A stretch of DNA of 64,000 bases from Pegea sp. RAD2-039 (Eukaryota; Chordata; Thaliacea; Salpida; Salpidae): the NCBI GenBank assembly GCA_034620365.1, contig JAQGEQ010000332.1:372001-436000 (forward strand), written 5' to 3'. Shown in pieces: positions 17,952-55,225 of this stretch; position 1 is the stretch's first letter, and each line of letters starts with the position of its first letter. Position numbers and translations under genes: made by a program. The notes beneath the pieces are model-generated. The model saw only the letters and a list, made by a program, of their open reading frames with translations. It was not told the origin of the DNA and made no database searches.

Positions 17952-20900
17952 AATGTAAATTGTAAATGAACATTAAGCATTTATGAAGTATTTTTAACAC
18001 CTTGGTTATTTTTGGCATGTTTGTTGTTTAGACAGAAAATTGAATTTTATTCAATTAAATTTATTTTAAAAATTATATATGAAGAATCTATAACGATTAT
18101 GAAGAATTTATTATTTTTCAGCTTTTGTTGTCAAAAATTTAGCTATAAAAATGCTTGTTAAGAGGCAAAATGAATAAATTTGTTTGCCTAAATGTGTTTG
18201 TTTATCATGGTCTGTGCATGTTTTTTAAGATGTTGTAGCATTTTAGCCTTTAATAACTAGTAATAGCTTTTAAATACTCACAGCGTTATATTGAAAACAA
18301 CTTGTGTATATTCCATTAGCAGCTAATATACAAAAAATAAGCATAAAACTAAGGACAACTTTATATTGATTAAAAAAATATTTATATGAAAGTAGTTTTA
18401 TACTAGCTCAACATTCCTAAGCTAATAAAAAAGTTTAATATTTTAAGAGATATTGTTTAAACACTTGAATAAGGAAGAGAATAAATGTTAAATGTAAGTT
18501 AAACTTAAATTTTATAGAAATTATATCAAAAAACTATTTTTGTCAAATTTCATAGTTGTCATTCATATATTTTATGGTAGGTTATTTTTTAATTTTAGAT
18601 CTACAACAGATAAACATGTTTCTCTAAAAAATTTCTACAAATTTTTATGGTTTATTTAGTGCTATTTCAGGTTACTGGTTATTATAATGATAAAGTAACA
18701 TCAAAACTCTAATGACTGATTTAAAAGATAACTTTTTGTTGATATTTTTATACATATTTATCTCATTGTTAATTACTAGTTTAGTATTAAAGCCTATTTA
18801 TTTTTGCTTATTGTAATGCATGAAATGATAGCTATTTTTTAATTCTATGAAAGTAATTGTATAAAATATAAAATAAAATAAATATGAAATAATAGTCAAT
18901 TTCTGCTTATATCATAACTTCAAAGTTTTGTTGAACAATACTTGATTTGTTATGTCTTGTTGATTTATTTATTTAATATATTTATTTAGTCATCTCTTGA
19001 AACATTCTCTTATTTGTCTAATATAATAATACATTAACTACATTAAATACTACATTAGTTCCTAAAGAAACAAAAGGGACTTACAGTACAAGTATAAACA
19101 AGTATAAAGATTTTAAGTTACAAATGCTATCAACTTTAGAAATAATAGCAATCCTTGTGACATCTTCTATTGCTATTTTGCTAAAGTGTTTAATCCTGTC
19201 TAACTTAACAAGCTCAAAATTGTCTTGTAACAAATAAAAACAGAAAAGCTTTATCTTAAATTGAAGTGATGATTATTTATGAAGTAAAACCCAACAAACT
19301 CAAATACATCTTTATATATTTTTCGTAAAATCATCATTAGTGTTACTCAGGGTTCTGTTTTAGGTCCCTTGCTCTTTTTACTTTTTATAACAGACCTTTT
19401 CAGAAAAATAGAATTAGCAGATTATGTCAGTGTGTTTGTTTCTGCTGATGACATTAAGATATCATCTTGCAATCCTTCAAGTCTTCAAACAGCTCTACAC
19501 GTAGAAGGAAATGATCTCTGAACTGGCAGCTCAGAGTCCAGCCAACAAAGTTTGAACTTATAACTATCTATTGTACACTAATTTTCAAGATTTATTATTT
19601 TACAAATATGTTTTGTCCTAAAACTTTGCTTTAGCGTTTAGCTGATTTAAAATGGTGCATTTATGTTTCAAAAAATTTGACAAAATCAATCAACCTTACT
19701 AACCGTAATATAGATATCTTTGGTTTTACGTATTCATACTTCAATATAAATCTTTTCAAATTGTACATACGTCTTATCTTTGAATAAATTAGGAGATGGA
19801 TGCCATGTCAAGTGGATGATACCAACAAATTTAATCATAAACTAATTTTTAAATTTTTTACAAGTTAAATTAAAGGGGGTAATAAGTTAAGGAAAACAAT
19901 TTATAATCTCAGCTTATTTAACTGTTTAGTTGTCAAAGAACTCTCGTTAAAATAAAAAGTAAACTGTAGAGCTCAGCATAAATAAAGGAAGTTGATGTAA
20001 AAAATTTTAATTTTATTGAATTAATGCAGAACAAATAATACTGTTAAAATGTTTACTTATTAAAGATTTTCAAACAATTCTTAGTTTATCGAATCAAAGT
20101 CAAATCTATCTTAACTTGGGTACTATTTTAAAACAAACCTAAATAGTTATTTTTCAAAGCAGAATAAATATTGTAAGTTTAATTTTTCACCTGTGTTTAT
20201 TTTTAGTTATTACATATAGTAAAACAAAACACCTGCAAAAACGTTAACCTAGTTTAGGTAGGCCAATTCCTGATATTCAAATCGATTTTTCTCATTTATT
20301 GAAAAATGTTCATCATAGAAGGTAATAACTAGAAGAGTAACTTGACACCTATAAGTTTCCTTTCTGTTTGATTGTTAAATAAGATTAGGACATAAAAGTT
20401 TATGTGTGTTTGTAAAATACTTTAAACAAATTTAAAATACTTTGAAAGAAGCAAACAATAGTTTTAATGTAACGCTGATTAAATAAAGCTCTACAGAGTT
20501 ACTGATTATGAGAAAATTTAATTATAGTCGACCTTCCATAAATACATGAAGATATGTTAGAATTCAGATATCGAAAAATTGTGAAATATTTTGTTGTATT
20601 GCCAAACGATAGCCAAATATAAAACAAGAGATTTATCTATATTAATATTTCTTCATACTTGATGCAAGAGATCCTAGGATGTTATCCTAAAAGAACTATT
20701 TATTTGCGTCATTAAATAATTAGGTTACAATTTGATTGTTTAACTAAGTAGACTCTGTAAAAGTAAAATTTTCATTTAATCTCAAACAATTTAATTGTAT
20801 ATTTAAAAATTTGATTTTTATTTATAACCGATTATCAGTTGTAATAGCTAATTGATAGAAATGTCAAAAAACTGTTTCCTGTATTCAAACGAATTTTCTT

Positions 20901-23415
20901 ATAAATAAAGGTAGAACGAATAATTAATGGTACTTTGAATATCTGTTTGAATTCATAACTTATAAACTGATCTACTGTAAAAGGTTTATTCTATAATTTC
21001 CATAATCAAGCAATAAATTTTAAAATCAGCCAAGTAGCACTGAAAGCGAAAAAAATTAGTTAAAAATGAATTGCTTAAAAAACTAAATATATTAAATCTT
21101 ATTACAAAACAAATAATAAAACAAACTATTTTTTATTCTTACTATGTCTAAATAGTTCACTACAAGCACAATTGCATTTTTAGTGAAAAATTGGAGTGAA
21201 GAGGAAATGTTTTGACTAAATCAAGACCATGAACTACCCCCCAAGATTTAAACAAAGATTGTTACAGTAAGCAAAAGACAGTTAAAATACAAGTTCAATG
21301 AAAATCATGCAACAATTTTTGTAAAACGGTAATAAGCTAAATAAATCCATTGATAAAGTATTAATTAATAATAATAATAACATTATAATACTTAATTACT
21401 ATAAAACTGACAAAAATGTCAAGAAAATAAAAAATAAATAATTTAATTTATAACAAAGTAAAAAATAATATTTTAAAGAGATTTTGTTTGCTGAATTATC
21501 TAAACTATGAGAATTTATAGAAAAACATTATTTAACCATCAAAAATAAATTAAATTAAAAGAACGGGCAGACTTATATGGATATAGATAAATATCTTATA
21601 ATGGTTCATAACACCCATTAATCCAGTTGGATAAATATAGACCTTAAAATTTAAATATTTTAGTTTGATTTATAAATATCATGTAATTTTGATGACTGGC
21701 ATATAAATGAAAAAATAAAAACAGATTATTAAACTTAAACTAATGAGATAGCACATTTATAATCAGTTTTATCCTAATAGTAATTTTTAACATAGTTATC
21801 TAAAAAAATTCATGTTTTATTGAAATGAAAAATGATAATTCAAGTTTTGTTTAATCCAAATCGCAACAGTTGAAGAGTTTGTTTTAAATATTCAGTATGT
21901 ATGAATATAACAAAAGATTTTTAGTATGGTGATGAAGATAGTTAATCTTATAGATAATGAGCAATAGCTTAAAGGTATTGAACTTGTAAATTTTGCTTAA
22001 GAGTTGTTTTCTGATTTACTTTTGTTTATTGCCATTTAATTTGGCTTGATGCTTATTAGCTAACACAATCACTAGTGTTTTAAAACTTCTGAATTTATAA
22101 ACTTAGTATTTATAGTCTCTGATGTACAAGTCTGAACAAGTTTTAATTCTCTTAAATACTTGAGATTTTTAAGTATTTCTAAATATCTTCACATTATTAA
22201 TAGAAAAGTTATATTTATAAATATTTATCAAATGCATTTCTTATATAATAGAAAAAACACCTAAAAAAGTTAAACAGAAAATTAAAATGTTACTTAAATT
22301 TTTACCCGCCTGAATCACGAGTATTAAATTGCAGTATTGCTCAATTTAACGTATGATTATTTGAGGTCAACTTTCTTAAAGTAGGCTAAATATTCTGATT
22401 ATGGCGTGACTTGATTAGTATAAATAACCTCAAGTTTAGTTATTCTCATTTAGTACCTGCTTGAGTCGACAGAGCTTGTGGTTAGCTCAGAATAAATCTG
22501 TAGTAGAAAAAGTTTTCAGTTATATAAAATTTAATTATCAATTTTATCTATAAGAATTATTAAAAATATTTTTTTTCTTAGATTTATTTTATTGGAGTCA
22601 TTCAAATTCGGTATTTAATCAATCTAAATGTCTTATTCTTGTTATTTATTATTTACAGATGCCAAGTAATATGATCTAATTTGTTTTCATCCTGCTTTAA
22701 ACTATAAGATAAATAAATTTTTAAAATTTTTATATAATTTTTTTAACATCTTTCTAAAAGTTTAAATCATAGCAATCATTGTCAATATGTTTATGTAGTT
22801 TTTATTTGTACTATCTATTCACGTTTTCAAGTTGTTTAGAACTTTAAAAACAATAAACATGGTTATTCTGAAATAATAATTTAGAGTTGTTTTTTTGGAG
22901 TCTATGCAAAACATGTGTAATATATTAAAGGTTTTTTTCCACAAAATAAGTTTTTTTAAACTTTATCTAAATTTTCAATTCATTCAAACTTTGTTTTGTT
23001 TTTTTATAAACACTTTTTTTGACACAAAAATTTATTTCCATGTTAAAAAATATCATAGTCTTTTGTTTGTGACTTCAAAAATTGTCTTCCACTTTTTTTT
23101 GAAGTTTTTTTTTATTCTGTCTTCATATATCGCTTACATAGTTATTTCAAAAAACAAAACAGTCTGTGAAATTTTCTTAACAAATTAAATGAAAGTTTTA
23201 ATAAATTTAAAGTTATCAAAAATGAAAATCAAGCTTAAAAGCTTTAATATCAAAATGAATAAATTTAATAATGACATCAAATTATAATTTTATTACTATA
23301 TAAGTAGAAATCATTTTTTTATTTTTTGTTTTTACCAAATCTAATTACAATAATGTTTTTTTATAAATGATGCAGGTTTTAAGAATTAACATTTTTATAA
23401 TCACAGTTTTATACA
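17952..23415. other. AT-rich intergenic region with an RT remnant
   Basis: No supported gene. It contains the RT remnant at 19.31-19.76 kb. The ORF at 22895-23188 encodes mostly F/K/I/L/S and matches a T-rich stretch, so it is best read as chance. Confidence 0.5.
19310..19760 (+). mobile_element. Decayed RT fragment
   Basis: The plus strand reads TQGSVLGPLLFLLFITDL, then VSVFVSADDIKISSCNPSSL (the catalytic YADD is now SADD) and, after frameshifts, LQLRVQPTK-like and DLKWCIYVS blocks. It is the same family as the fragments at 1-1115. It is broken in several places. Confidence 0.88.
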
Positions 23416-26400
23416 ATGAAGAAATTTATTATAACATTTTTTTCAATACTTGAACTTATATTTTTATCAATAATAGTTTGTGATTCAGAAACAAACAAGT
23501 AGGTTGTTTTAAGGTTTATCTTAACTTTTAGATTTTGTTTTGGTTAGTTTTGGTATAAATTATAGACTACTGAAAAGTTTACTTAGTAACTTATCAGATT
23601 TAGCTAACCTTTAAACAAATATTCCCTTGATACAGACCCTTGATACCAGTAAGTAAACTCGATGGAAAAAAATCTACTATCAGGATTGAAGAAAAAGGCA
23701 AAATTATTTTGAGTAATGATATTAATTCAAAATCATTAGTCTCTTCATCATCAAGAATACTTTATAATCAGGTTATTATATCAATCATTTGTTTAGAAGG
23801 GTTAAATTTTGTATGTCTTAGTTGAAAATGTAAAAAAATTTAATAATTGTGCTGTTTATAGGATGGAAATGAAATTGAAATTATCACATCGTTGAATGAA
23901 GATCTTTTCAAAGTGGTTGGTAAATCGCTGGAAGTGAGTATACTTTTGATAAACTCCCTATCTTCCACTAATATTGAATTAAAATATTTGAAAATTCATT
24001 TTCTTGATTGTTGATATTTTTCAGGCATTCCCTTTTGATGTAGAAGAATGGATTCTTATATTTAAAGCAAAAGAATTCTCTTCCTTTAGATTAGAAGTCA
24101 ACTCTAGGAGGTGAATGTTGGAAGATTTTGTACAATTTTATAATTTTGTTTTTATGCAGAATGACTTACATCTGTTCATCAAAAGGATGTTGGAATCAAA
24201 ATCATGGAAAATTTGCTTTAGGTGATATTGTCATCGTGAGAAAAACCCAGCTTACAGTTTGTCTGGTTGAAAGCAGAAGTGGACCAGAGAGGTCACTTAC
24301 ATCCCACTGTCGAGCGCAAAATAAACTTCTGAATATGTTTTCAGGTGGAGCTTCAGTGTTGGTGAACTAAATCTTCAGCTTTCAGGACTAATTTTCATAT
24401 TTTTCTTGTGCTGTTTGCTATTAGTAGCATTTATTAAAAAATACTTTGTGAGTTTTTATATAAGCTGATCAAGCAATTGGTTTTAAAGTTTAACTATTTA
24501 TTAGAATACATTTAAAAATAGAAGCTATCCGGTAGCATTTCAAGACGCTAGTATTCAGACAGAGATACATGAATCTAGACTACCGACAGAAGATCAATCG
24601 ACCACCATGATTGAGTCTTCTGCAGTTGAGATGGAATATAATTCAAGATTTCTTCAAGACTTTGAAATCCTTGAGTGTTTGGGCAGAGTAAATAATTATT
24701 TCATGAGTTGTTTCAATGATTTTTCCATGAGTTTTTAACGAAACTTTTATAAATTCAATTGAAGAACTTATTCAAAAATGACTGAAAACTGATTTACACA
24801 AGAATGTATTTTAATACGATTGTTGGTAATTTAGTGATTAGATCTACATCTAACATATTACTGTAATAAGAATTATTTTATTGTCAACAGGGAGGATTTG
24901 GTATTGTATTCAAAGCTCAAAATTCTTTGAATAGTTGCATATATGCCGTCAAGCGAATTTTGTTACCACAAAAGTAAGTTGTTTTGCATTTTATCAATAT
25001 AATGTTTCACCACTTTAGTTAATTTCTGTCTGTTTTTAATTACTTTTATTACTACTGCTTCTATAATTATACTTTAAAGCTATGACGATCGCCAGAAGAT
25101 GTTGAGAGAGGTCCGTGCTCTTGCTATTTTGGATCATCGATCAATTGTTAGGTTTTATAATGCTTGGCAGGAGTCTCCTCCTAAACAATGGCAAGAAAGG
25201 CAAGATTCAGTAAATCCTTGCCTACAAGGGTTTGTAAAAGATTTCTAAATAAATGCTCTGTTATGAAAAATGTTTATATGTTTATTTGAAGCTATTTACA
25301 TTAAGTTGTAACAATTTTTGATTAAACTTCAATTTCGTCAATAGAAATGGGAACTCTTTTACCGATTCATTTTCCTCTGATGAAAGCATTCCAGTTAATA
25401 TGAAGTCACACTCAGGAAGTATGAGCCATACTTCAAGTTCAATCATATTCATGACTGACGACTTAAGCAAGACTACAGCTGCTACTCGTACTGATGATAG
25501 TGAATTACTTCACGATCTCAACTGTAAAACAGTTGGTGCAGGAAAATGGATGTTTAAATATCCCAAAAATACAGAATCACAAACAGAAACCACATTCGAG
25601 AATAGTTCCTCTTCTATCGTGTTCGACTCAATAGCATATGCTGAGGTAAGTCCTTGTACTTATCACAACCTGACATCTTAGTTAATATCACGTATTATAT
25701 AGGACGATGCCCACATATTTTCAAAACGAAAGTTGCAAGTTAAAAATAGTAAAATACGGAATAGATATCAATGTACACCTAGTAAAACTGGTCAGTTAAA
25801 ATAGGTGAGATTAGAACATGGCTTTATTTGACAAGTATTTATTTGTTTAGAAAAATCAAAACAAACGTCAAAAGGAAAAACGTCAAGTACTACTCCGGAT
25901 TATGGTCGAATGTACCTATTCATTCAAATGGAGCTCTGTCGAGACGAAAGTTTGCGTGACTGGCTTCAAACAAAAGTAGATCGTAACCGCAAAGAATTTC
26001 TTAATATTTTTAAGCAGGTATGGAATGAAAATAAATCTCTTTAATTCAAGCAAATCAATTAATTCGATCTTGCAATCTTACAGATTCTTGATGCAGTGAT
26101 CTACATACATGCCAAGCATTTGATACACAGGGACCTTAATCCATCGAACATCTTCTTTTCACTAGATGGTGTCATCAAAGTCGGTGACTTTGGACTTGTG
26201 ACTACCAACAAAGTAATAGAGATGTCTTCTTCAAGTCATCATTTCTTGAATAAAAGTTCCATTCATACTGAAGACGTCGGAACTCAAATGTATATGGCTC
26301 CTGAGCAGGTTTGTTCATATCTCACGACTAAATTTTCTGTTGAATTCGAAATTTCCATTCTTAGATGACCAGTAGTACTTATACGGACAAAGTAGATATA

Positions 26401-26707
26401 TTTGCCCTTGGAATCATCTTGCTTGAACTATCAAATACTTTTAACACACAAATGGAACGAATTTGTGTTTTAAGTAATGCAAGGACTAAGGGAACATTCC
26501 CTAAACAATTCACGGAAAACTACCCTGATGAAGTACTTTTGATATAATTTTATTATTGTTATTTTTAAGTTTGTCGTAAGATACAACGACTTGAAACAAA
26601 TTTATTTTTGACAGAAAAAAATAACAGCAAGGATGCTTAATAAGGATGCCAACCAAAGGCCGTCTGCTCTACAAGTCCTTGATTTTTTCAATTCTTTGGA
26701 TATCTAA
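23416..26707 (+). CDS. EIF2AK3: PERK-type eIF2-alpha kinase with a short lumenal domain (15 exons)
   Basis: Exons: 23416-23498, 23636-23771, 23862-23933, 24025-24110, 24160-24291, 24345-24447, 24505-24687, 24891-24973, 25080-25229, 25345-25645, 25703-25790, 25851-26017, 26084-26308, 26365-26532, 26615-26707; frame is kept (689 residues). PERK spans the ER membrane and phosphorylates eIF2-alpha on ER stress. Residues 1-23 look like a signal peptide. The lumenal part keeps recognisable PERK blocks ([32 protein letters not shown]) and then meets the membrane segment (about 184-200) directly, so it is about 180 residues instead of about 500. The kinase starts near 256: GGFG 266-269, AVK with K286, helix-C E303, a long insert (about 330-485), HRDLN 543-547, DFG 563-565, [19 protein letters not shown] and the TQMERI block are PERK-like. 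N547 replaces the usual catalytic-loop Lys. The exon 5-6 junction uses a weak GTCACT donor and a 53-base intron, but conservation supports it. Confidence 0.92.
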
Positions 26708-27604
26708 GAAGAAAGTGTTTTTCTTTCTCTTCTGCTTCTTTCTAGCCTTATCAAAATCCTCTTTTCAAAGTTGCAGTATTTGTTTAAAGTATAAAAGTTT
26801 ACATTAATTGAAATGAATACTTTCGGGCTAAAAAACTTTTTTTGTTTCTGAAGTCGAAAACAACTTAAATGCCTTCTAGCCGGTCTTCAACTTATTATTA
26901 TTCATTTATAATCACGAGAATTAACATTTTACTTTCGAAAATTTTTACTGCGGACTTTTTACTGAATTTTAACTATTTTTAAATGAATCTTGTTTCATAC
27001 TTTTTTGCACTTCTATGCACAAATATCTCAATCAGATTAACCTATAATAATGATACATTTTATTTACATTTAACCGTTACAGATGTATTGAAATAATGAT
27101 TTCGTGTTTGTTAAAAGTGTTTTTTAATTACAAAATATCATTTTACTATTGATACTAAGGAACCTTTTGTAAACTTTTTTAGTTGTACTTTTCCTACACC
27201 GTGAATTAAAACTAATAAACAGTTCTCTCAAAATTTAAGAGTCGCTCCAAAAAAGTTGACAGGATGTAGACAGGCATTTAGATGAAGTATTATAGGATTT
27301 GTTGAATCTTCTAAACAAGAAAATCAATATGCTAGCTGCTAGTTTTGCTTTTACTGTAAATAATGTGAGAGCAAAAATATTTAAAGAAAATAAATTTTGT
27401 TAGATTTTATACTGCTTGATCAAGTATAAATTTCAGAGAAAGTTTGGTTTTAACTTTTACTAAATGATGCTATTTTTGAAGAAAAAACTAGATTAAATGT
27501 AGCTTGCTTGACGTGTGATATAAATTGTTGAACTTATAGATATATTTTTTTATAATATACCCTTGAAGTTGAAAGCCTATAGTTTATCTAAGAAATTATT
27601 ATAC
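26708..27604. other. 3' flank of the PERK gene
   Basis: Likely 3' UTR and AT-rich spacer between the kinase stop and the start of the satellite array. No other feature seen. Confidence 0.5.
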
Positions 27605-30600
27605 TTGAATACTTTACAGAGTTTAAATCTTTCCATATTAAGTTGAAAAAAGAAACCAAATTAGTTTTAAAAGTGATTCAAAAACATGTTTTGTAATCAC
27701 GATTTCACAATTCATACAAATTGCTTTTGGATTTAGATTAAATTTAAAAATCAGTTTTATCTGATTAAAATAGTTAAAATAGTTATAAACTCTGTAGAGT
27801 TTAAGTGTTTCCATATTTAGTTGATATGAACAACTCAATCAGTTTTACAATTGATTCAAAAACATGTTTTGTAATTAGGATTTGACGATTCATACAAATT
27901 GGTTCTGGATTGAGAACAGATTAAAATATGAATTTTTTAAATCTAAAATAATTCAAATAGTTAGACACTTGTAGAGTTTAAATCTTTCCATAGTAAGTTA
28001 AAAAGAGAAACCAAATCAGTTTTAAAATTGAATCAAAAACATGTTTTGTAATCAGGTTGTTCACAAATCCTACAAATTGCCTTTGGATTTAGATCAAATT
28101 TAAATATGATTTTTCAATAATTAAAATAATTCAAAAAGTTGGATACTTTGGAGAGTTCAAATCTTTCCATATCAAGTTAAAAAGAGAAACCAAATTAGTT
28201 TTAAAATTGATTCAAAAACATGTTTTGTAATCAGGATTTCACAATTCTTAAAAATTGACTTTGGATTTAAAACAAATTTAAATATGATTTTCAAATAATT
28301 AAAATAGTTCAAATAGTTAGATACTTTTTAGATTTGAATTCTTTCCATATTAAGTTGAAAAGAGAAACCAAATCAGTTTTAAAATTGATTCAAAAACATG
28401 TTTTGTAATCAGGTTGTTCACAAATCCTACAAATTGATTTTGGATTTAGATCAAATTTAAATATAATTTTCAAATAATTAAAATAGTTCAAATAGTTAGA
28501 TACTGAATACATTTTAAATCTTTCCATATTAAGTCGAAAAGAGAAACCAAATCACTTTTAAAATTGATTCAAAAACATGTTTTGTATTCAGGATTTCACA
28601 ATTCATACAAACTGCTTTTGGATATAGATCAATTTTAAATATCAATTATATATAATTAAAATTGTTAGATACTTGTAGAGTTTAAATCTTTCCATATCAA
28701 GTTAAAAAGAGAAACCAAATTAGTTTTAAAATTGATTCAAAAACATGTTTTGTAATCAGGATTTCAGAATTCTTAAAAATTGACTTTGGATTTAAAACAA
28801 ATTTAAATATGATTTTCAAATAACTAAAATAGTTCAAATAGTTAGATACTTTATAGATTTTAATTCTTTCCATATTAAGTCGAAAAAAGAAACCATATCA
28901 GTTTTAAAATTAATTCAAAAGCATGTTTTTTATTCAGGATTTCACAATTTATACAAATTGCTTTTGGATTTAAAACAAATTTAAATATGATTTTCAAATA
29001 ATTAAAATGGTTCAAATAGTTAGATACTTTATAGATTTTAATTCTTTCCATATTAAGTTGAAAAGAGAAACCAAATCAGTTTTAAAATTGATTCAAAAAC
29101 ATGTTTCGTATTCAGGATTTCACAATTCATACAAACTGATTTTGGATTTAAATCAATTTTAAATATCAATTATATATAATTAAAATTGTTAGATACTTGT
29201 AGAGTTTAAACCTTTCCATGGTAAGTTGAAAAAAGAAACCGTATAAGTTTTATAATTGATTCAAAAACATGTTTTGTAATCAGGTTGTTCAAAAATCCTA
29301 CAAATTGCTTTTGGATTTAGATCAAATTTAAATAATATTTTTAAATAATTAAAAAAATTCATATAGTTAGATACTTTGTAGAGTTCAAATCTTTCCATAT
29401 CAAGTTAAAAAGAGAAACCAAATTAGTTTTAAAATTGATTCAAAAACATGTTTTGTGTTCAGGATTTCACAATTCATACAAATTGCTTTTGGATTTAAAA
29501 CAAATTTAAATATGATTTTCAAATAATTAAAATGGTTCAAATAGTTAGATACTTTATAGATTTTAATTCTTTCCATATTAAGTTGAAAAGAGAAACCAAA
29601 TCAGTTTTAAAATTGATTCAAAAACATGTTTTGTATTCAGGATTTCACATTTCATACAAACTGCTTTTGGATATAGATCAATTTTAAATATCAATTATAT
29701 ATATCTAAAATTGTTAGATACTTGTAGAGTTTAAACCTTTCCATGGTAAGTTGAAAAAAGAAACCATATCAGTTTTAAAATTGAATCCAAAACATGTTTT
29801 GTAATCAGGTTGTTCACAAATCTTACAAACTGCTTTTGGATTTAGATCAAATTTATATATGATTTTTAAATAATTAAAAAAATTCAGATAGTTAGATATT
29901 TTGTAGAGTTTAAATCTTTCCATATTAAGTCGAAAAGAGAAACCAAATCACTTTTAAAATTGATTCAAAAACATGTTTTGTATTCAGGATTTCACAATTC
30001 ATACAAACTGCTTTTGGATATAGATCAATTTTAAATATCAATTATATATAATTAAAATTGTTAGATACTTGTAGAGTTTAAATCTTTCCATGGTAAGTTG
30101 AAAAAAGAAACCGTATAAGTTTTAAAATTGATTCAAAAACATGTTTTGTAATCAGGTTGTTCAAAAATCCTACAAATTGCTTTTGGATTTAGATCAAATT
30201 TAAATAATATTTTTAAATAATTAAAAAAATTCAGATAGTTAGATACTTTGTAGAGTTCAAATCTTTCCATATCAAGTTAAAAAGAGAAACCAAATTACTT
30301 TTAAAATTGATTCAAAAACATGTTTTGTAATCAGGTTGTTTACAAATCTTACAAATTGATTTTGGATTTAGAACAAATTTAAATATGATTTTTAAATAAT
30401 TAAATTAATTCAAATAGTTAGATATTTTGTAGAGTTTAAATCTTTCCATATTAAGTCGAAAAGAGAAACCAAATCACTTTTAAAATTGATTCAAAAACAT
30501 GTTTTGTATTCAGGATTTCACAATTCATAAAAACTGCTTTTGGATTTAGATCAATTTTAAATATCAATTATATATAATTAAAATTGTTAGATACTTGTAG

Positions 30601-33600
30601 AATTTAACTCTTCCATAGTAGGTTGAAAAGAGAAACCATATCAGATTTAATATTGATTCAAAAACATGATTTGTATTCAGGATTTCACAATTCATACAAA
30701 TTGATTTTGGATTTAAATCAATTTTAAATATCAATTATATATAATTAAAATTGTTAGATACTTGTAGAGTTTAAATCTTTCCATGGTAAGTTGAAAAAAG
30801 AAACCGTATAAGTTTTAAAATTGATTCAAAAACATGTTTTGTAATCAGGTTGTTCAAAAATCCTACAAATTGCTTTTGGATTTAGATCAAATTTAAATAA
30901 TATTTTTAAATAATTAAAAAAATTCAGATAGTTAGATACTTTGTAGAGTTCAAATCTTTCCATATCAAGTTAAAAAGAGAAACCAAATTACTTTTAAAAT
31001 TGATTCAAAAACATGTTTTGTAATCAGGTTGTTCACAAATCTTACAAATTGCTTTTGGATTTAGATCAAATTTAAATATAATTTTCAAATAATTAAAATA
31101 ATTCAAATAGTTAAATGCTGAATAGATTTTAAATCTTTCCATATTAAGTCGAAAAGAGAAACCAAATCACTTTTAAAATTGATTCAAAAACATGTTTTGT
31201 ATTCAGGATTTCACAATTCATACAAATTGCTTTTGGATTTAGATCAAATTTAAATAATATTTTTAAATAATTAAAAAAATTCAAATAGTTAGATACTTTA
31301 TGAGTTCAAATCTTTCCATATCAAGTTAAAAAGAGAAACCAAATTAGTTTTAAAATTGATTCAAAAACATGTTTTGTGTTCAGGATTTCACAATCCATAC
31401 AAATTGATTTTGGATTTAGAACAAATTTAAATATAATTTTCATATAATTAAAATAGTTCAAGTAGTTAGATACTTTATAGAGTTTAAATCTTTCCATAGT
31501 ATGTTGAAAAGGGAAACAGAATCAGTTTTAAAATTGATTCAAAAACATGTTTTGTAATCAGGATTTCACAATTTATACAAACTGCTTTTGGATTTATAAC
31601 AAATGTAAAAATGATTTTCAAATAATTAAAATAATTCAAATAGTTAGATACTTTATAGATTTTAATTCTTTCCATATTAAGTTGAAAAAAGAAACCAAAT
31701 CAGTTTTAAAATTGATTCAAAAATATGTTTTGTAATCAGGTTGTTCACAAATCCTAAAAATTGAATTTGGATTTAGATCAAATTTAAATATAATTTTCAA
31801 ATAATTAAAATAGTTCAAATAGTTAGATACTTTATAGATTTTAATTCTTTTGTATTAAGTTAAAAAGAGAAACCAAATTAGTTTTAAAATTGATTCAAAA
31901 ACATGTTTTGTATTCAGGATTTCACAATTCATACAAATTGCTTTTGGATTTAAAACAAATTTAAATATAATTTTCAAATAATTAAAATAGTTCAAATAGT
32001 TAGATACTTTGTAAAGTTCAAATCTTTCCATATCAAGTTAAAAAGAGAAACAAAATTAGTTTTAAAATTGATTCAAAAACATGTTTTGTAATCAGGATTT
32101 CACAATTTATACAAACTGCTTTTGGATTTAAAACAAATTTAAATATGATTTTCAAATAATTAAAATAGTTCAAATAGTTAGATACTTTATAGATTTTAAT
32201 TCTTTCCATATTAAGTTGAAAAAAGAAACCAAATCAGTTTTAAAATTGATTCAAAAATATGTTTTGTAATCAGGTTGTTCACAAATCCTAAAAATTGAAT
32301 TTGGATTTAGATCAAATTTAAATATAATTTTCAAATAATTAAAATAGTTCAAATAGTTAGATACTTTATAGATTTTAATTCTTTTGTATTAAGTTAAAAA
32401 GAGAAACCAAATTAGTTTTAAAATTGATTCAAAAACATGTTTTGTATTCAGGATTTCACAATTCATACAAATTGCTTTTGGATTTAAAACAAATTTAAAT
32501 ATAATTTTCAAATAATTAAAATAGTTCAGATAGTTAGATACTTTGTAAAGTTCAAATCTTTCCATATCAAGTTAAAAAGAGAAACAAAATTAGTTTTAAA
32601 ATTGATTCAAAAACATGTTTTGTAATCAGGATTTCACAATTTATACAAATTGCTTTTGGATTTAAAACAAATTTAAATATGATTTTCAAATAATTAAAAT
32701 AGTTCAAATAGTTAGATACTTTATAGATTTTAATTCTTTCCATATTAAGTTGAAAAAAGAAACCAAATCAGTTTTAAAATTGATTCAAAAATATGTTTTG
32801 TAATCAGGTTGTTCACAAATCCTAAAAATTGAATTTGGATTTAGATCAAATTTAGATATGATTTTCAAATAATTAAAATAGTTCAAATAGTTAGATACTT
32901 TATAGATTTTAATTCTTTTGTATTAAGTTAAAAAGAGAAACCAAATTAGTTTTAAAATTGATTCAAAAACATGTTTTGTATTCAGGATTTCACAATTCAT
33001 ACAAATTGCTTTTGGATTTAAAACAAATTTAAATATAATTTTCAAATAATTAAAATAGTTCAAATAGTTAGATACTTTGTAGATTTTAATTCTTTTGTAT
33101 TAAGTTAAAAAGAGAAACCAAATTAGTTTTAAAATTGATTCAAAAACATGTTTTGTATTCAGGATTTCACAATTTATACAAATTGCTTTTGGATTTAAAA
33201 CAAATTTAAATATGATTTTCAAATAATTAAAATAGTTCAAATAGTTAGATACTTTATAGATTTGAATTCTTTCCATATTAAGTTGAAAAGAGAAACCAAA
33301 TTAGTTTTAAAATTGATTCAAAAACATGTTTTGTATTCAGGATTTCACAATTCATACAAATTGCTTTTGGATTTAGATCAAATTTAAATATGATTTTTAA
33401 ATAATTAAAATAGTTCAAATAGTTAGATACTTTGTAGAGTTCAAATCTTTCCATATCAAGTTGATAAGAGAAACCAAATTAGTTTTAAAATTGATTCAAA
33501 AACATTTTTTGTAATCAGGATTTCACAATTCATACAAATTGCTTTTGGATTTAGATCAAATTTAAATATAATTTTCAAATAACTAAAATAGTTCAAATAG

Positions 33601-36600
33601 CTAGATACTGATTAGATTTTAAATATTTTAATATTAAGTCGAAAAGAGAAACCAAATCAGTTTTAAAATTGATTCAAAAACATGTTTTGTAATCAGGATT
33701 TCACAATTTATACAAATTGCTTTTGGATTTAGATCAAATTTAAATATGATTTTTAAATAATTAAAAAAATTCAGATAGTTAGATATTTTGTAGAGTTTAA
33801 ATCTTTCCAAAGTAAGTTAAAAAGAGAAACCAAATCAGTTTTAAAATTGAATCAAAAACATGTTTTGTATTCAGGATTTTACAATTCATACAAACTGCTT
33901 TTGGATATAGATCAATTTTAAATATCAATTATATATACTTAAAATTGTTAGATACTTGTAGAGTTTAAACCTTTCCATGGTAAGTTGAAAAAAGAAACCG
34001 TATAAGTTTTAAAATTGATTCAAAAACATGTTTTGTATTCAGGATTTCACAATTCATACAAACTGATTTTGGATTTAAATCAATTTTAAATATCAATTAT
34101 ATATAATTAAAATTGTTAGATACTTGTAGAGTTTAAACCTTTCCATGGTAAGTTGAAAAAAGAAACCGTATAAGTTTTAAAATTGATTCAAAAACATGTT
34201 TTGTATTCAGGATTTCACAATTCATACAAATTGCTTTTGGATTTAGATCAAATTTAAATATGATTTTCAAATAATTAAAATAGTTCAAATAGTTAGATAC
34301 TTTGTAGAGTTCAAATCTTTCCATATCAAGTTAAAAAGAGAAACCAAATTAGTTTTAAAATTGATTCAAAAACATGTTTTGTATTCAGGATTTTACAATT
34401 CATACAAACTGCTTTTGGATATAGATCAATTTTAAATATCAATTATATATACTTAAAATTGTTAGATACTTGTAGAGTTTAAACCTTTCCATGGTAAGTT
34501 GAAAAAAGAAACCGTATAAGTTTTAAAATTGATTCAAAAACATGTTTTGTATTCAGGATTTCACAATTCATACAAACTGATTTTGGATTTAAATCAATTT
34601 TAAATATCAATTATATATAATTAAAATTGTTAGATACTTTGTAGAATTTAACTCTTCCATAGTAGGTTGAAAAGAGAAACCATATCAGTTTTAAAATTGA
34701 ATCAAAAACATGTTTTGTAATCAGGTTGTTCACAAATCTTACAAATTGCTTTTGGATTTAGATCAAATTTAAATATGATTTTTAAATAATAAAAATAATT
34801 CAAATAGTTAAATGCTGAATAGATTATAAATCTTTCTATATTAAGTCGAAAAGAGAAACCAAATCAGTTTTAAAATTGATTCAAAAACATGTTTTGTATT
34901 CAGGATTTCACAATTCATACAAACTGCTTTTGGATATAGATCAATTTTAAATATCAATTATATATATCTAAAATTGTTAGATACTTGTAGAGTGTAACTC
35001 TTCCATAGTAGGTTGAAAAGAGAAACCATATCAGTTTTAAAATTGAATCAAAAACATGTTTTGTAATCAGGTTGTTCACAAATCTTACAAATTGCTTTTG
35101 GATTTAGATCAAATTTAAATATGATTTTTAAATAATAAAAATAATTCAAATAGTTAAATGCTGAATAGATTATAAATCTTTCCATATCAAGTTGAAAAGA
35201 GAAACCATATCAGTTTTAAAATTGATTCAAAAACATGTTTTGTAATCAGGTTGTTCACAAATCTTACAAATTGCTTTTGGATTTAGATCAAATTTAAATA
35301 TGATTTTTAAATAATTAAAATAATTCAAATAGTTAAATGCTGAATAGATTTTAAATCTTTCCATATTAAGTCGAAAAGAGAAACCAAATCAGTTTTAAAA
35401 TTGATTCAAAAACATGTTTTGTATTCAGGATTTCACAATTCATACAAACTGCTTTTGGATATAGATCAATTTTAAATATCAATTATATATATCTAAAATT
35501 GTTAGATACTTGTAGAGTGTAACTCTTCCATAGTAGGTTGAAAAGAGAAACCATATCAGTTTTAAAATTGAATCAAAAACATGTTTTGTAATCAGGTTGT
35601 TCACAAATCTTACAAATTGCTTTTGGATTTAGATCAAATTTAAATATGATTTTTAAATAATAAAAATAATTCAAATAGTTAAATGCTGAATAGATTATAA
35701 ATCTTTCCATATCAAGTTGAAAAGAGAAACCATATCAGTTATAAAATTGATTCAAAAACATGTTTTGTAATCAGGTTGTTCAAAAATCCTACAAATTGCT
35801 TTTGGATTTAGATCAAATTTAAATAATATTTTTAAATAATTAAAAAAATTCAGATAGTTAGATACTTTGTAGAGTTCAAATCTTTCCATATCAAGTTAAA
35901 AAGAGAAACCAAATTAGTATTAAAATTGATTTAAAAACATGTTTTGTGTTCAGGATTTCACAATTCATACAAATTGATTTTGGATTTAGAACAAATTTAA
36001 ATATGATCATCAAATAATTAAAATAGTTCAAATATTTAGATACTTCATAGAGTTTAAATCTTTCCATAGTATGTTGAAAAGGGAAACAGAATCAGTTTGA
36101 AAAATTAATTAAAAAACATGTTATGTTATCAGGATTTCACAATTTATACAAACTGCTTTTGGATTTATAACAAATGTAAAAATGATTTTCTAATAATTAA
36201 AATAATTCAAATAGTTAGATACTTTATGAGTTCAAATCTCTACATGTCAAGTTAAAAAGAGAAACAAAATTAGTTTTAAAATTGATTCAAAAACATGTTT
36301 TGTAATCAGGATTTCACAATTTATACAAATTGCTTCTTGACTTAAAACAAATTTAAATATGATTTTCAAATAATTTAAATAGTTCAAATAGTTAGATACT
36401 TTATAGATTTTAATTCTTTTGTATTAAGTTAAAAAGAGAAACCAAATTAGTTTTAAAATTGATTCAAAAACATGTTTTGTATTCAGGATTTCACAATTCA
36501 TACAAACTGCTTTCGGATTTAGATCAAATTTAAATATGATTTTTAAATAATTAAAATAGTTCAAATAGTTAGATACTTTGTAGAGTTCAAATCTTTCCAT

Positions 36601-38230
36601 ATCAAGTTGATAAGAAAAACCAAATTAGTTTTAAAATTGATTCAAAAACATGTTTTGTATTCAGGATTTCACATTTCATGCAAATTGCTTTTGGATTTGA
36701 AACAAATTTAAATATAATTTTCAAATAACTAAAATGGTTCAAATAGCTAGATACTGATTAGATTTTAAATATTTTAATATTAAGTCGAAAAGAGAAACCA
36801 AATCAGTTTTAAAATTGATTCAAAAACATGTTTTGTATTCAGGATTTCGCAATTTATACAAACTGCTTTTGGATTTAAAACAAATTTAAATATGATCATT
36901 AAATAATTAAAATAGTTCAAATAATTAGATACTTTATAGATTTTAATTATTTCCAAATTAAGTCGAAAAGAGAAACCAAATTAGTTTTAAAAGTGATTCA
37001 AAAACATGTTTTGTAATCAGGATTTCGCAATTTATACAAATTGCTTTTGGATTTAAAACAAATTTAAATATGATCATCAAATAATTAAAATAGTTCAAAT
37101 AGTTAGATACTTTATAGATTTTAATTCTTTCCATATTAAGTTGAAAAGAGAAACCAAATCAGTTTTAAAATTGAATCAAAAACATTTTTTGTAATCAGGC
37201 TGTTCACAAATCCTACAAACGGCTTCTGGATTTAGATCAAATATAAATAAGATTTTTAAATAATTAAAAAATTCAAATAGTTAGATACTGTGTAGAGTTT
37301 AAATCTTTCCATATCAAGTTAAAAAGAGAAACCAAATTAGTTATAAAATTGAATCAAAAACATGTTTTGTAATCAGGATTTCACAATTTATACAAATTGC
37401 TTTTGGATTTAAAACAAGTTTAAATATAATTTTCAAATAATTAAAATAGTTCAAATAGTTAGATACTTTATAGATTTTAATTCTTTTGTATTAAGTTAAA
37501 AAGAGAAACCAAATTAGTTTTAAAAGTGATTCAAAAACATGTTTTGTATTCAGGATTTCACAATTCATACAAATTGCGTTTGGATTTAGATCAAATTTAA
37601 ATATAATTTTCAAATAACTAAAATAGTTCAAATAGCTAGATACTGATTAGATTTTAAATATTTTAATATTAAGTCGAAAAGAGAAACCAAATCAGTTTTA
37701 AAATTGATTCAAAAACATGTTTTGTATTCAGGATTTCACAATTCATACAAACTGCTTTTGGATATAGATCAATTTTAAATATTAATTATATATATCTAAA
37801 ATTGTTAGATACTTGTAGAGTTTAAATCTTTCCATATCAAGTTGATAAGAGAAACCAAATTAGTTTTAAAATTGATTCAAAAACATGTTTTGTATTCAGG
37901 ATTTCACATTTCATGCAAATTGCTTTTGGATTTATAACAAATTTATATAATATTTTTAAATAATTAAAAAAATTCAGATAGTTAGATACTTTGTAGAGTT
38001 CAAATCTTTCCATATCAAGTTAAAAAGAGAAACCAAATTAGTTTTAAAATTGATTCAAAAACATGTTTTGTAATCAGGATTTCAGAATTCTTAAAAATTG
38101 ACTTTGGATTTAAAACAAATTTAAATATGATTTTCAAATAATTAAAATAGTTCAAATAGTTAGATACTTTATAGATTTTAATTCTTTCCATAGTAAGTTG
38201 AAAAGAGAAACCAAATCAGTTTTATAATAT
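27605..38230 (+). repeat. Tandem satellite array, about 170-180 bp unit, about 60 copies
   Basis: The array is continuous from the first TCTTTCCATATTAAGTTG to the last, truncated unit near 38230. Each unit carries, in order, CTTTCCAT.T.AAGTTGAAAA, GAGAAACCAAAT.AGTTTTAA, AATTGATTC, the near-invariant AAAACATGTTTT (a perfect 12-base palindrome), TTTCACAATTCATACAAA, TTGCTTTTGGATTTAGATC, and a variable AT part. Two monomer classes differ in that part. Long units (about 178 bp) have ATAATTAAAATAGTTCAAAT. Short units (about 170 bp) have ATCAATTATATATAATT. Another variable spot is GGATTTCACAATTC versus GGTTGTTCACAAATCC. Local higher-order periods of about 534 bp (31.85, 32.38, 32.91 kb) and about 526 bp (34.99, 35.51 kb) equal three monomers. 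The copy number is estimated from length. Confidence 0.97.
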
Positions 38231-38239
38231 TAACCCATA

Positions 38240-39364
38240 TTTTCACAAATAATATCTACTTGGGCCAAAATTTTGAACGCATAGGTTTTACCACATTGCA
38301 ATGCGGTCTCTATAATTCATATGCACCCTAAAAGCATATAACAGTGAACTATTACTTAAAAGGGAAGAACTCACAGTTTAGAAATGGCAGTGTTGGCAAT
38401 GTTATAACGGTTTAACTTTTTCATGAACAACACGAGTGATTCTGACATGACAATATATGATGGCAACTGGTTCCATATAGAGTAATGACCTTTTTGTGTG
38501 GGAGAGAATCAAACGCTGTAGCTAAATCGAGACTTATCATGTCACAATGTATATTACGTTTATAATTCAGCCCTAAGCTCATTGCGAAACGAGAGATGTT
38601 GAGTCAGTGAAGATCTCTGTTTCACAAAGCCATGTTGGACATCAGATATAAGATGGTGTTCCATCAAATGACGGGTCATATGATTGTGAATGATATGTTT
38701 TTGAGTTCTGCAGATAACTGAAGTCAGCGAAACTGGTCTGTAGTTAAGTGCGGTCTTTCTGGGACCTGTTTTATTAATAAATACGAATGCTATATAAAAA
38801 AATATATAAATAAACAATATATAAATATATATATTATAAAAACGCTATTAAATTGATTGTTTACTAACTCAGCTTTATTTTCTGGCTTCATCACGAGCTG
38901 GTCGCTGTTATCAAATAAGGGAGGTAAATGAGATCTCGCTGTAAGCTTGTGATTTATGAAACCAAAAAACTTTTTCTTGCTAGGTGAAGATAAAACAGTA
39001 CTTTCTCTTCCCAAATAGAAATAGATTTCTTGTAAGCTATACAAAGATCTGTATCTGTATGGGGGATCTAGATTTGTACAGAGATTTGTTGGAAGGGTCT
39101 GTTTTAGTATGTTTGTATAGGAGGTTTTTTAAATGTTGTAAATTCCTTAAATAACTAGGCAAATGTGGTTTTTTTGCTGATTCTATAAAAAGGTATGAAT
39201 TTTTCGATAGACTCCTTAGTGACGTTAGTAGACCTTGTGTATATAGTATTGGTGTCTTCTGAAGAGTTGAAAACAGAAATCCAATCAACACCTGAGTGAA
39301 ATTTGTTAATACCATTATAGTTTCCACAATAAAAGTTTCTTTTGCTTGAAGTTTTAACGTGCAT
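38240..39364 (-). mobile_element. Broken LINE: linker, pre-RT and RT start, then a 3'-end-like segment
   Basis: On the minus strand, 39327-39037 encodes a linker-like stretch (KPHLPSYLRNLQHLKNLLYK). The next frame gives LTARSHLPPLFDNSDQLVMK and NKAELVNNQFNSVF, the usual lead-in to a CR1-type RT. After about 70 bases of TA-rich sequence that replace part of the RT, 38780-38460 encodes TALNYRPVSLTSVICR, LISDVQHGFVKQRSS and DLATAFDSLPH. The YADD half is missing. The segment at 38240-38450 shares a block (CAGTTTAGAAATGGCAGTGT, then GGCAAT.TTATAACGG) with 41.23 and 52.62 kb. There it precedes a tail shared with the SINE, so it is probably LINE 3' UTR. The element ends flush with the satellite array. 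Confidence 0.88.
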
Positions 39365-40599
39365 AAAAAAAAGTTTGATGGAGCTTGAATTCAGTCATGT
39401 TTTGATTGCATGTCAGTACAAAAGGTTCTTTTTGATCAACGTAGATAATTAACTAAAAAGAAGGAAGGTTCAAAACAAATATGATGTTCTGAAGTTTTTT
39501 CAGATATGTTTAAGGGATTTGCTTCAATATAAATCAAACGAACCTAGTAAATCATATTCTTGTGATATGACTTTGATCTCAAATCATTTTAAAAGCTGTT
39601 TCATGAAATTTTATAAAATCCAAATTTTAATGGGTTCAGTTTTAAAAAGAGAAATAAATTTTCGTTAGTAACAAAATTAATTAACTACTCATTATGCACA
39701 GTTTGTTGGTATAATACAAATTTTTACACTATTTTTTTTTTTGAATAAAAGTTTCTTACTCTTTAGAGTCGATGTAAGTAGTAATTTCACATGATCAAAC
39801 CTCATCAAAACAAACAATATTTGGAATTAACTGACAAATACAACATTTTTTTAATGAGAGCTGCATAAAAAAGTTTACCTAAGATAGTAACTTTTCATTG
39901 TAGTAATTTTTAGCAATTACCACCTTACTAAGTTCTTAATCACAATTTCTATAAAACAAGCAGTTTTATAAAAAGTTTTATAAAACATTATTAGAGCACT
40001 TTATACCGAGAACAAAAGAGATGATTTTTTCTATAATCACCTAAGATGAAATAGATAGCAAGAGCTAATTCTCCAGCGCCTTTGTTAATATAAAGAAAGC
40101 TCTTGTTGACCAAACACATTGGACAATAAAGAAGCTACTTGAGTGATGATTAATATCCAAGGGTGTATGCCACAAGCTGACTTATTTGTTAGCATTTATG
40201 ACGTTGATAATTTCTTCAATATATATAATTATATGCAGTCATCTAACAGCGAAAACATAGTCAGAAGCAACTCATCAGGCCCTTTAGCTAATATTAAGGA
40301 ATCTACCGGTAAACAACCATATGTCATACTTTGCTCTATTGTATAAATTTATTAGACACTTATCCAATGAATGAATATGAAGGTATACATAACTACAGCA
40401 CCGATCAAAATGCTGGAGTTGTTCTGGAAAAACAAGTTAGCTAATATTATCTTTCAAGAGTCTTACTATTTGATTGCTATTAAGAAACTTATTGATGTCG
40501 AGGAGAAGCAAATCAACAATCATATTTATCTTAATAATCTGTACAAGCTAGATAACAATTAATTTTAAAGTAAATTTATACTGATTCTGCTATTGATTT
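39365..40599. other. Spacer with two short ORFs, no supported gene
   Basis: AT-rich sequence. Two adjacent plus-strand ORFs (40143-40346 and 40371-40562) have slightly more protein-like composition than the surroundings. They show no known motif, and in this stretch I cannot join them by splicing. They may be remnants of a retroelement whose RT piece follows at 40.69 kb. Confidence 0.35.
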
Positions 40600-41783: not shown

Positions 41784-43328
41784 CTAATATTTTTTCTTTA
41801 TTTTACCTTTAATTCTTAAGTCAAGTATTTGAGGAACTTTTTCTTGTCGACGGCGAGTTTCTGCTTCTCGTTGAAACATTGCTTTATGTTGTTGTTTTTG
41901 TCGAGTTTCCTCCTGCTGTTTGCGATCTCTCATGAGCTTTTCTTGTTGAGCTCTTTCTTTAGCTTCCTTTTGTTGTTGTAGAAAAGCTCTTTTTTCCTCT
42001 TTTGCACGAAGTTGTTCTTGTTTTTCTCGCTGTTCGCGCTGTTCTTGCTGTCTTCGATTAGCAATCCCTTGTTGCTCAAAAATTTCTAAAACGCGTTTTT
42101 TCATTAACTTGTCCGATTGTTTTTGACAATATGCTCGCTCTCGATGGAATCTTCTTTCGTTTTCCATTCGATGATCGGTCTCTACTCTTTGTCTTACTTT
42201 TTCTTCTTGATTCTTTTGCTGTATTTTTCTCCATTCTGCTTGTTGTTGACGCTGCTTTTCTCTTTCATATTCTTGTTTTCTTCTTATTATTTCTTTTTCA
42301 ATAATTTGTTGTTGCTCTTTGTCTACTTTTTGACGACGTACTTCTTCTTTTTGACGACATGTTACCTCTTTTTGACGGCGATTTTCTTGTTGTATTAGCA
42401 GTTGGCGACGTTTTTCTTCTTGTGCTCGAAGAAAAAGTTCTTCGTTTGCTTTTTGTCTACGTCTTTCTTGTTGCTGTTGCTGTTCTTGTCGAATTTTTTC
42501 TGCTTGTTGTTTTTGTTCTATTTGACGACGTGTTTCTTCTTTCTTTAGTAGTTGGCGACGTTTTTCATCTTGCAGTCTTAGAAAAAGTGCTTCTTTTTCT
42601 TCTCGACTTCGTCTTTCTTGTTGCTGTTGTTGTTGCTGTCGAATTGCTTCTGCTTGTTGTCTTTGTTCTAAGAAAGCTTGTTGTCTTTGTTCTAAGAAAG
42701 CTTGTTGTCTTTGTTCTAAGAAAGCTTGTTGTCTTAATCTTATGACACTATCTCGAAGAAGCGCAGTTTTAGCTCTCTGCATCATCATTTCTTTTTCTAG
42801 TATTTGCTTTAGACGATTACTTTCTAGTTCTTGTCGACGACGAGCTTCTTCTAACTGTTGTTGGCGATGTTGTTCATATCTTTGTTGTTGTAATTGCTGC
42901 TGTTCTTTTGCCATTTGATCTTTTTCAAGAAGTTTTCGGTTTTGTTCTATTTGTGCATTGCGACGAAATTGTTCTTGTTGTTTTAGTAGTTGAATGCGTT
43001 TTTCCTCTTGTAATTGACGAATATACTGTTGTTGCTTTCGTTGTTCTTCACGAACTGCTTCTTCTTGTGTCAATCTAACGCCACTTTGTAGTATAAGTAA
43101 AGTTTGAGCATGGAATAGTTTCTCTCTTTTTTCATTTTGTTGCTGTTGATGCTGACGTTCTTCACGTTGTCGACGAAAGGCTTCTTGTTGCTGTTGTTGA
43201 CGACGTCTTTCTTCTTGTTGTCGGCGATGATTTGCTTTTTCTTGTTGACGAAGCCTATCCTCTGACTCTTGTTTCTGTTGTCGAAGAAACTTATTTTCTT
43301 CTTGTTGCTGATGTGTACGATGGTCCAT
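41784..43328 (-). CDS. Q/E/R/K-rich coiled-coil protein, paralogue 1 (514 residues)
   Basis: Single open frame from ATG (MDHRTHQQQE) to a Lys-rich end (LDLRIKGKIKKKY). Almost the whole chain is Gln, Glu, Arg and Lys with Leu/Ile/Ala at intervals, as in trichohyalin-like long helices or coiled coils. There is no signal peptide or membrane segment. Internal repeats: RQQAFLEQ three times in a row (residues 199-222), and one 50-residue unit near 254-303 (EKRRQLLKKEETRRQ... EELFLRAQ). The paralogue at 53627-55105 shares both ends and the general plan. A TATA box lies about 60 bases before the ATG and an AP-1-type site just upstream of it. Function is unknown; a structural or cytoskeletal role is only a guess. 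Similarity in database searches will be dominated by composition. Confidence 0.88.
   Translation of the reverse strand: MDHRTHQQQEENKFLRQQKQESEDRLRQQEKANHRRQQEERRRQQQQQEAFRRQREERQHQQQQNEKREKLFHAQTLLILQSGVRLTQEEAVREEQRKQQQYIRQLQEEKRIQLLKQQEQFRRNAQIEQNRKLLEKDQMAKEQQQLQQQRYEQHRQQQLEEARRRQELESNRLKQILEKEMMMQRAKTALLRDSVIRLRQQAFLEQRQQAFLEQRQQAFLEQRQQAEAIRQQQQQQQERRSREEKEALFLRLQDEKRRQLLKKEETRRQIEQKQQAEKIRQEQQQQQERRRQKANEELFLRAQEEKRRQLLIQQENRRQKEVTCRQKEEVRRQKVDKEQQQIIEKEIIRRKQEYEREKQRQQQAEWRKIQQKNQEEKVRQRVETDHRMENERRFHRERAYCQKQSDKLMKKRVLEIFEQQGIANRRQQEQREQREKQEQLRAKEEKRAFLQQQKEAKERAQQEKLMRDRKQQEETRQKQQHKAMFQREAETRRRQEKVPQILDLRIKGKIKKKY
42663..42734 (-). repeat. 24-bp tandem repeat in the coding sequence (RQQAFLEQ x3)
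   Basis: Three nearly identical 24-base units (plus strand AAGAAAGCTTGTTGTCTTTG...) encode RQQAFLEQ in tandem. The paralogue has the motif once (LRQQAFLEQRQREEAI), so the expansion happened after duplication, or contracted in the other copy. Confidence 0.93.
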
Positions 43329-43386
43329 CTTACAAATTATTCCAGTGAGTAGTTTACGAACTGTTTTTTTTTGAAAGATCAGACGT

Positions 43387-43394
43387 CTTATATA
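43387..43394 (-). promoter_or_regulatory. TATA box of coiled-coil gene 1
   Basis: The minus strand reads TTTACTATATAAGACGTCT, with TATATAAG about 60 bases before the ATG. The same core, TTTACTATATAAGA, sits upstream of the paralogue, although most of the surrounding promoter has diverged. That conservation argues for function. Confidence 0.7.
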
Positions 43395-43429
43395 GTAAAA
43401 AGAGTATGATTCATTGAAACATTCATAAC

Positions 43430-43436
43430 TGACTCA
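43430..43436. promoter_or_regulatory. AP-1-type site (TGACTCA)
   Basis: A palindromic TGACTCA lies about 36 bases upstream of the TATA box of coiled-coil gene 1. I did not find an exact match at this position upstream of the paralogue. Single 7-mers arise by chance every several kb, so this rests on position. Confidence 0.35.
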
Positions 43437-55105: not shown

Positions 55106-55225
55106 TTTGCAAAAATCGATCGTAGTTCGAGCTTATGAACTGATGCTTGAAAAACGGAGAAAAATTTTCTCAGAATTTACCCGAGTAATAATTTCAAGTA
55201 TGTTTGAAACTTCAAATCAAGACTT

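Follow-up and report, generated by a model that had tools for sequence, protein, structure and literature searches.

A duplicated PERK gene in Pegea sp. without its C-terminal lumenal half, owing to one in-frame deletion

The window analysed here, a stretch of 64,000 nucleotides from Pegea sp. RAD2-039 (assembly GCA_034620365.1, contig JAQGEQ010000332.1, positions 372,001 to 436,000 of the forward strand), carries a PERK gene on its plus strand at 23416-26707. The gene has 15 exons and 14 introns of 49-203 bases, and encodes 689 residues that end at a TAA stop codon (26705-26707); its 689-codon frame is free of internal stops, and all 14 introns are bounded by GT-AG splice sites. Exon 1 (23416-23498) supplies a signal-peptide-like start, with the signal peptide itself (residues 1-23) judged by eye, and is joined by in-frame GT-AG splicing to exons 2-6 (23636-23771, 23862-23933, 24025-24110, 24160-24291, and 24345-24447). 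Exons 2-5 and the start of exon 6 (23636-24381) encode residues 28-182, the N-terminal half of the lumenal core of PERK, as recognised by phmmer. A transmembrane helix follows directly (residues 184-200, 24385-24435), placed from the sequence, an AlphaFold model, and its likeness to a second PERK gene of this genome on contig C4, with whose membrane segment window residues 183-203 share 71% identity. The earlier note had described just this succession of signal peptide, lumenal blocks and then the membrane segment, and the in-frame exons 1-6 bear it out.

The remaining exons 7-15 (24505-26707) encode a cytosolic juxtamembrane region and an eIF2alpha-kinase domain with a kinase insert, identified through PF00069 and the PERK kinase structure 3qd2. 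The latter was the best match of the window kinase domain (E 3.2e-82, 279.6 bits), whereas the top-scoring GCN2 chain reached 184.4 bits, which assigns the kinase to the PERK type rather than to GCN2. The window kinase scores well, and the kinase of the C4 gene higher still, both against PF00069 (170.3 bits, versus 158.6-160.8 bits for the window kinase) and against 3qd2 (321.7 bits, versus 279.6 bits for a slightly longer window query). A Pfam search of the window protein returned kinase families only, with no match to the lumenal part.

At the level of structures, window residues 30-181 align with the lumenal crystal chain of mouse PERK, 4yzy, from its residue 3 to residue 165 out of 301 (E 1.1e-15), where the alignment ends, and phmmer matches to the PERK lumenal chains 4yzy, 5v1d, 5sv7, and 4yzs ranged from E 1.1e-15 to 1.3e-13. 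The human PERK lumenal part has about 485 residues. The lumenal part of the window protein comprises about 155-160 residues, compared to about 435 in the full-length C4 paralogue (37%), which confirms an earlier estimate that about one third of the usual domain is present. By the numbering of the 105-403 construct in the structural report PMC4474532, the last lumenal residues correspond to about position 267 of human PERK. The tetramer helix and strands of PERK are placed at human residues 375-397 in that report, so the tetramer subdomain is absent from the window copy; the juxtamembrane lumenal region, which is present in the C4 copy, is likewise deleted. A single-sequence AlphaFold model computed without an alignment was uninformative for the lumenal fold (mean pLDDT 45): it gave helices at residues 2-19 and 175-203, was confidently helical solely at these hydrophobic ends, and contained a block of pLDDT 67-87 from residue 181 onward.

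A hidden exon encoding the missing lumenal half was ruled out, as the introns flanking exon 6 measure 53 and 57 bases and the half was found only on C4. The earlier note had argued similarly from exons lying 50-110 bases apart; its argument holds, although the spacing needs correcting, with introns of 49-137 bases between exons 1 and 6. Across the genome, seven matches to the missing half were found, six of which were on C4, and contig C43 yielded only one match, to the membrane helix, with E 9.5.

PERK is usually regarded as a single gene per animal. A search of the genome (105.7 Mb, 387 contigs) with window residues 30-334 returned 63 matches, among which those to the lumenal part were confined to the window locus and to C4:230638-234216 (minus strand), while other contigs matched the kinase part. 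The C4 locus contains a full-length PERK gene (C4:234449 to 229168, minus strand) of 21 exons and 977 residues, which has longer introns of 301 and 700 bases, where the gene model is least certain. Its lumenal residues 33-330 align to positions 3-299 out of 301 in that crystal chain (E 3.2e-43), the juxtamembrane stretch MFDLWWMLASSCLTRFQSG precedes its membrane helix, and its catalytic loop is the canonical HRDLKPSN. The window copy as the organism's sole PERK is ruled out by this gene, and the full-length C4 PERK has probably remained the normal ER-stress sensor. This changes the question that the earlier note had raised, namely how PERK here senses ER stress without a sensor: the oddity vanishes once the whole genome is considered, while membrane or constitutive sensing may still apply to the paralogue. 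The same note had named a second full-length PERK with the window locus silent as evidence against its reading, and the first half of this, the second gene, exists on C4.

The relationship between the two genes is that of a segmental duplication. Positions 20988-27436 (plus strand), a 6.4-kb segment, duplicate the C4 PERK locus and hold the gene together with about 2.4 kb on its 5' side and 0.7 kb on its 3' side. When the window was compared to C4:215600-255400 by blastn, this segment appeared as three collinear pieces of 71-74% identity interrupted by a 2.08-kb deletion; beyond it there were five short matches of 73-427 aligned bases, and the scarcity of matches outside the segment makes a local segmental duplication likely. 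At the deletion, the blastn pieces overlap exactly at 24382-24384, the left piece ending at position 1966 of the reverse-complemented C4 sequence and the right one beginning at 4045. These three bases (plus strand) form the junction, a TCA codon for Ser183 with a 3-base microhomology, at which the equivalent of C4:231354-233434 (2,081 bases) is gone. The deletion is in frame: exon 6 now continues midway through the membrane exon, and the sequence removed comprises the tetramer subdomain, the juxtamembrane region, and the flank on the lumenal side of the membrane helix. Because mammalian PERK is full-length, the full-length state is ancestral. The window gene is thus a duplicated PERK (EIF2AK3) paralogue whose C-terminal lumenal half was lost by one in-frame microhomology deletion.

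Beyond the gene, a satellite array at 27609-38228 (178-base unit, 60.4 copies, 85% matches) begins about 170 bases past the duplicated segment; elsewhere, this satellite gave only two diverged matches, on contig C260, in a search that skips very common words and missed the array itself. Pieces of non-LTR-type reverse transcriptase lie around the segment at 2-835 (minus; PF00078, E 2.8e-37), 19288-19518 (plus), and 38563-39390 (minus), the last two judged by eye. Further afield are DHHC palmitoyltransferase exons at 3426-3845 (plus; PF01529, E 5.6e-29; connected by eye from two frames), two similar Gln/Glu/Arg-rich open frames of 549 and 501 residues at 41784-43433 and 53627-55132 (both minus) that are apparently a local duplicate pair, and a weak tRNA match at 63330-63400 (minus; 31.3 bits, Rfam threshold 29).

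Apart from the deletion, the window copy carries smaller changes at positions that are otherwise conserved. Alignments with the C4 copy and human PERK place a loss of 10 residues relative to the C4 copy (the LLKSHKLSST region) at about 24052-24057 (plus strand), just before the presumed dimerisation strand, and conserved glycines near this strand are replaced (G111K, G112A, G119R, and G125R in window numbering); the strand itself was placed from an alignment with PMC4474532 and not from a computed model. In the catalytic loop, HRDLKPSN has become HRDLNPSN, with Asn547 encoded by an AAT codon at 26138-26140 (plus strand). Lysine occupies this position in the C4 PERK, a GCN2-like gene, and IRE1 of the same genome, and in all 18 distinct loops from the 30 best other kinase loci (a loop seen more than once entered the count a single time, and loci with no recognisable loop were left out). 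This lysine is the only member of the catalytic set that the window kinase lacks: by alignment, the glycine loop, the VAIK lysine, the alpha-C glutamate, HRD, the asparagine, DFG, and APE are all present, and the AVKRI lysine and the HT of the activation loop are intact. LIM kinases carry HRDLN, yet are active. An asparagine at this position therefore does not prove that a kinase is dead, judging by that analogy.

Other components of the stress pathways were also found in the genome. IRE1 is present, with a lumenal core corresponding to residues 9-277 of 2hz6 (roughly assembled sequence), as is a GCN2-like gene on contig C114, where an HGTP_anticodon2 match (E 2.7e-5) and a kinase match lie on the same strand, and eIF2alpha is encoded with its Ser51-type site LLSELSRRRIRS. 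Two candidate explanations were rejected on these grounds: the copy as a replacement for a missing GCN2, given the gene on C114, and a lumenal reduction common to the genome's other lumenal sensors, given the lumenal cores of the C4 PERK and of IRE1 (the latter from rough sequence). A search for relatives in viral contigs found four stretches that fit a pattern, none of them confirmed. Separately, clustered protein kinase genes whose long frames run without interruption (G000:C265:335286-381761 and C75:1987-115766) suggest kinase expansions in this lineage.

We evaluated whether the window copy is still a gene. Among 681 aligned codons the copy has no stop, while simulated neutral drift (started from the C4 sequence, with a mutation model of AT-rich targets and doubled transitions) produced on average 6.7 stops at a branch divergence of 0.05, 9.7 at 0.08, 13.6 at 0.11, 15.9 at 0.13, and 17.9 at 0.15, and none of the 300 runs at each of the five settings was free of stops. 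All 13 coding indels between the copies comprise whole codons, in a protein alignment that can reveal indels of this kind only. The disrupted frame and lost splice sites of a pseudogene are not seen, and the intact frame and splice sites, as read from the sequence, argue against a long-dead locus.

Rates of change point to weaker constraint. Pairwise dN/dS (NG86) was 0.32 (bootstrap 0.24-0.41), with 0.27 for the lumenal part, 0.22 for the N-lobe, 0.27 for the C-lobe, and 0.57 for the insert. The NG86 dS of 0.52 probably overstates synonymous change here: divergence at four-fold sites was 0.31 (46 of 181 differ), close to that of noncoding sequence (differences at 199 of 1029 aligned bases in introns; identity of 78% in the 5' flank and 75% in the 3' flank), and by this yardstick the pairwise dN/dS is about 0.5. 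With mammalian PERK as the outgroup, private changes at 426 sites numbered 40 in the window copy and 11 in the C4 copy (chi-square 16.5), distributed as 20:5 in the lumenal part, 3:1 in the N-lobe, and 17:5 in the C-lobe. Relative to the sites available, the window-private changes were 3 of 87 in the N-lobe and 17 of 189 in the C-lobe, a small contrast. A hand calculation with either the four-fold or the noncoding yardstick gave an amino-acid rate on the window branch of about 0.8 of neutral, near enough to neutrality that the protein may be under weak selection. Overall, the frame is preserved, and the protein it encodes appears from the sequence to be loosely constrained or shifting in role.

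These rates bear directly on the first alternative, that the gene is decaying, as a duplicate left to drift after the deletion in which no stop codon has arisen so far. Such a history would fit the 3.6-fold excess of changes over the sister copy at conserved sites, the lost glycines and catalytic lysine, the near-neutral amino-acid rate by four-fold sites, and the satellite array and retroelement fragments that adjoin the copy; it is hard to reconcile with the absence of stops where drift would have left about 7-18, with splice borders kept at every intron, and with a frame that survived 13 whole-codon indels. The evidence from the frame spans the whole time since the duplication, and with a very recent deletion, decay might have only just started. 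On balance, we consider decay doubtful.

What the copy might do depends on what the lost and retained lumenal parts contribute. According to passages of a review (PMC10511038), deletion of the juxtamembrane region nearly abolishes the association of PERK with BiP in mammalian cells, while BiP binds the PERK lumenal core in vitro at a site that those passages leave undetermined; given the in vitro binding, the retained half might still bind BiP. With the tetramer subdomain and the juxtamembrane region gone, the usual reading of lumenal unfolded protein would be lost, and by analogy the window protein should have lost at least part of its coupling to BiP and to unfolded protein in the lumen. In the accounts consulted (PMC10511038, PMC8616143), PERK without its lumenal domain answers lipid-bilayer stress, the lipid-saturation response of such mammalian PERK survives exchange of the membrane helix, and an amphipathic stretch flanking the helix is dispensable in IRE1-alpha. 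Drosophila PERK without its lumenal domain is described as expressed, located in the ER, and used as an allele that senses lipid-bilayer stress (PMC9901744). The window copy keeps the membrane helix and has lost its lumenal flank, which in IRE1-alpha and PERK seems dispensable in those accounts.

A second alternative builds on this background: the copy could be a working eIF2alpha kinase that no longer depends on lumenal sensing, with low constitutive activity or activation by lipid-bilayer stress via the membrane segment, as in PERK engineered to lack the lumenal domain. Its catalytic motifs are intact except for the HRDLK lysine (AVKRI lysine, DFG, APE, activation-loop HT), its N-lobe has just three private changes in 87 sites, the substrate eIF2alpha is encoded with the LLSELSRRRIRS site, and Drosophila and mammalian PERK lacking the lumenal domain are reported to respond to lipid stress (PMC9901744, PMC10511038, PMC8616143); since the helix flank is dispensable in IRE1-alpha, its loss is no argument against this alternative. 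The catalytic-loop lysine, however, is gone, the C-lobe also changed fast (17 versus 5) and not the lumenal part alone, and a constitutive eIF2alpha kinase would be costly, the last being an argument rather than data. An active kinase of this kind seems unlikely. The weakest alternative, that the window locus really holds a full-length PERK from which 2.1 kb went missing in assembly, draws on the locus being known from one assembly, and is very improbable because the copies differ at about 19-29% of bases (introns, flanks, blastn pieces), which leaves no room for a collapsed C4 copy, the junction sits on a 3-base microhomology that kept the frame and spared the splice sites, the missing half was not found on C43, and the window copy has further private changes.

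The best reading of the sequence is that of a kept, apparently stress-uncoupled PERK paralogue with a probably weakened kinase, standing beside the true sensor. In this paralogue, a membrane-anchored and kinase-weakened protein would partner full-length PERK, forming mixed dimers through the well-kept kinase N-lobe, and these dimers would tune, and most likely dampen, eIF2alpha phosphorylation, much as IRE1-beta is proposed to act on IRE1-alpha. Mixed lumenal dimers are doubtful given the conserved glycines and the 10 residues lost near the presumed dimer strand. With the catalytic-loop lysine changed, membrane or constitutive sensing is no more likely than a role as a modulator with an impaired kinase. 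Anatomy and precedent modestly favour damping, through the lost lysine, the small number of private N-lobe changes, and the example of IRE1-beta. Taken as a whole, our leading but still tentative explanation is a deletion-born paralogue that may act as a kinase-weakened partner dampening full-length PERK, with the C4 gene as the sensor; within it, the duplication and the deletion are nearly certain.

Several known systems help to place this gene. Compared to metazoan PERK/EIF2AK3 (human, mouse, and the C4 copy), it is alike in its type I layout, the N-terminal half of the lumenal core, the membrane helix, and an eIF2alpha kinase with a long insert and most catalytic motifs; it differs in lacking everything lumenal past WNFSVG (from about human residue 267 on), in having HRDLN for HRDLK, and in missing 10 residues before the presumed dimerisation strand. 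As an ER-membrane kinase that probably has no working lumenal sensor, it resembles PERK engineered to lack the lumenal domain, as described for mammalian cells and for Drosophila PERK-deltaLD (PMC9901744), but the window copy is natural, retains about 155 lumenal residues, has a full-length PERK alongside, and has an altered catalytic loop. Vertebrate IRE1-beta (ERN2) is, as presented in a review (PMC8528705), also derived from an ER-stress sensor by duplication, has an altered kinase, and coexists with the canonical sensor. That review reports the proposal that IRE1-beta is a dominant-negative paralogue that suppresses IRE1-alpha; a suppressing role of the window PERK copy is purely putative, with a compatible anatomy. 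Among the titles and abstract openings listed in a literature search, with subscription journals largely outside its scope, there was no natural truncated or duplicated PERK, which is no proof of absence. Unlike the window copy, IRE1-beta keeps its lumenal domain.

We tentatively propose that one deletion released this PERK paralogue from lumenal sensing, and that the paralogue may have been kept as a decoy or a membrane-responsive regulator of full-length PERK. If this is true, the gene would be an evolved counterpart of the laboratory PERK made without its lumenal domain, and would be to PERK what IRE1-beta is to IRE1-alpha. If the copy has been kept, it would be a natural experiment on the purpose of the lumenal domain, and would show whether PERK signalling through the membrane only, or through a partner only, serves an organism.
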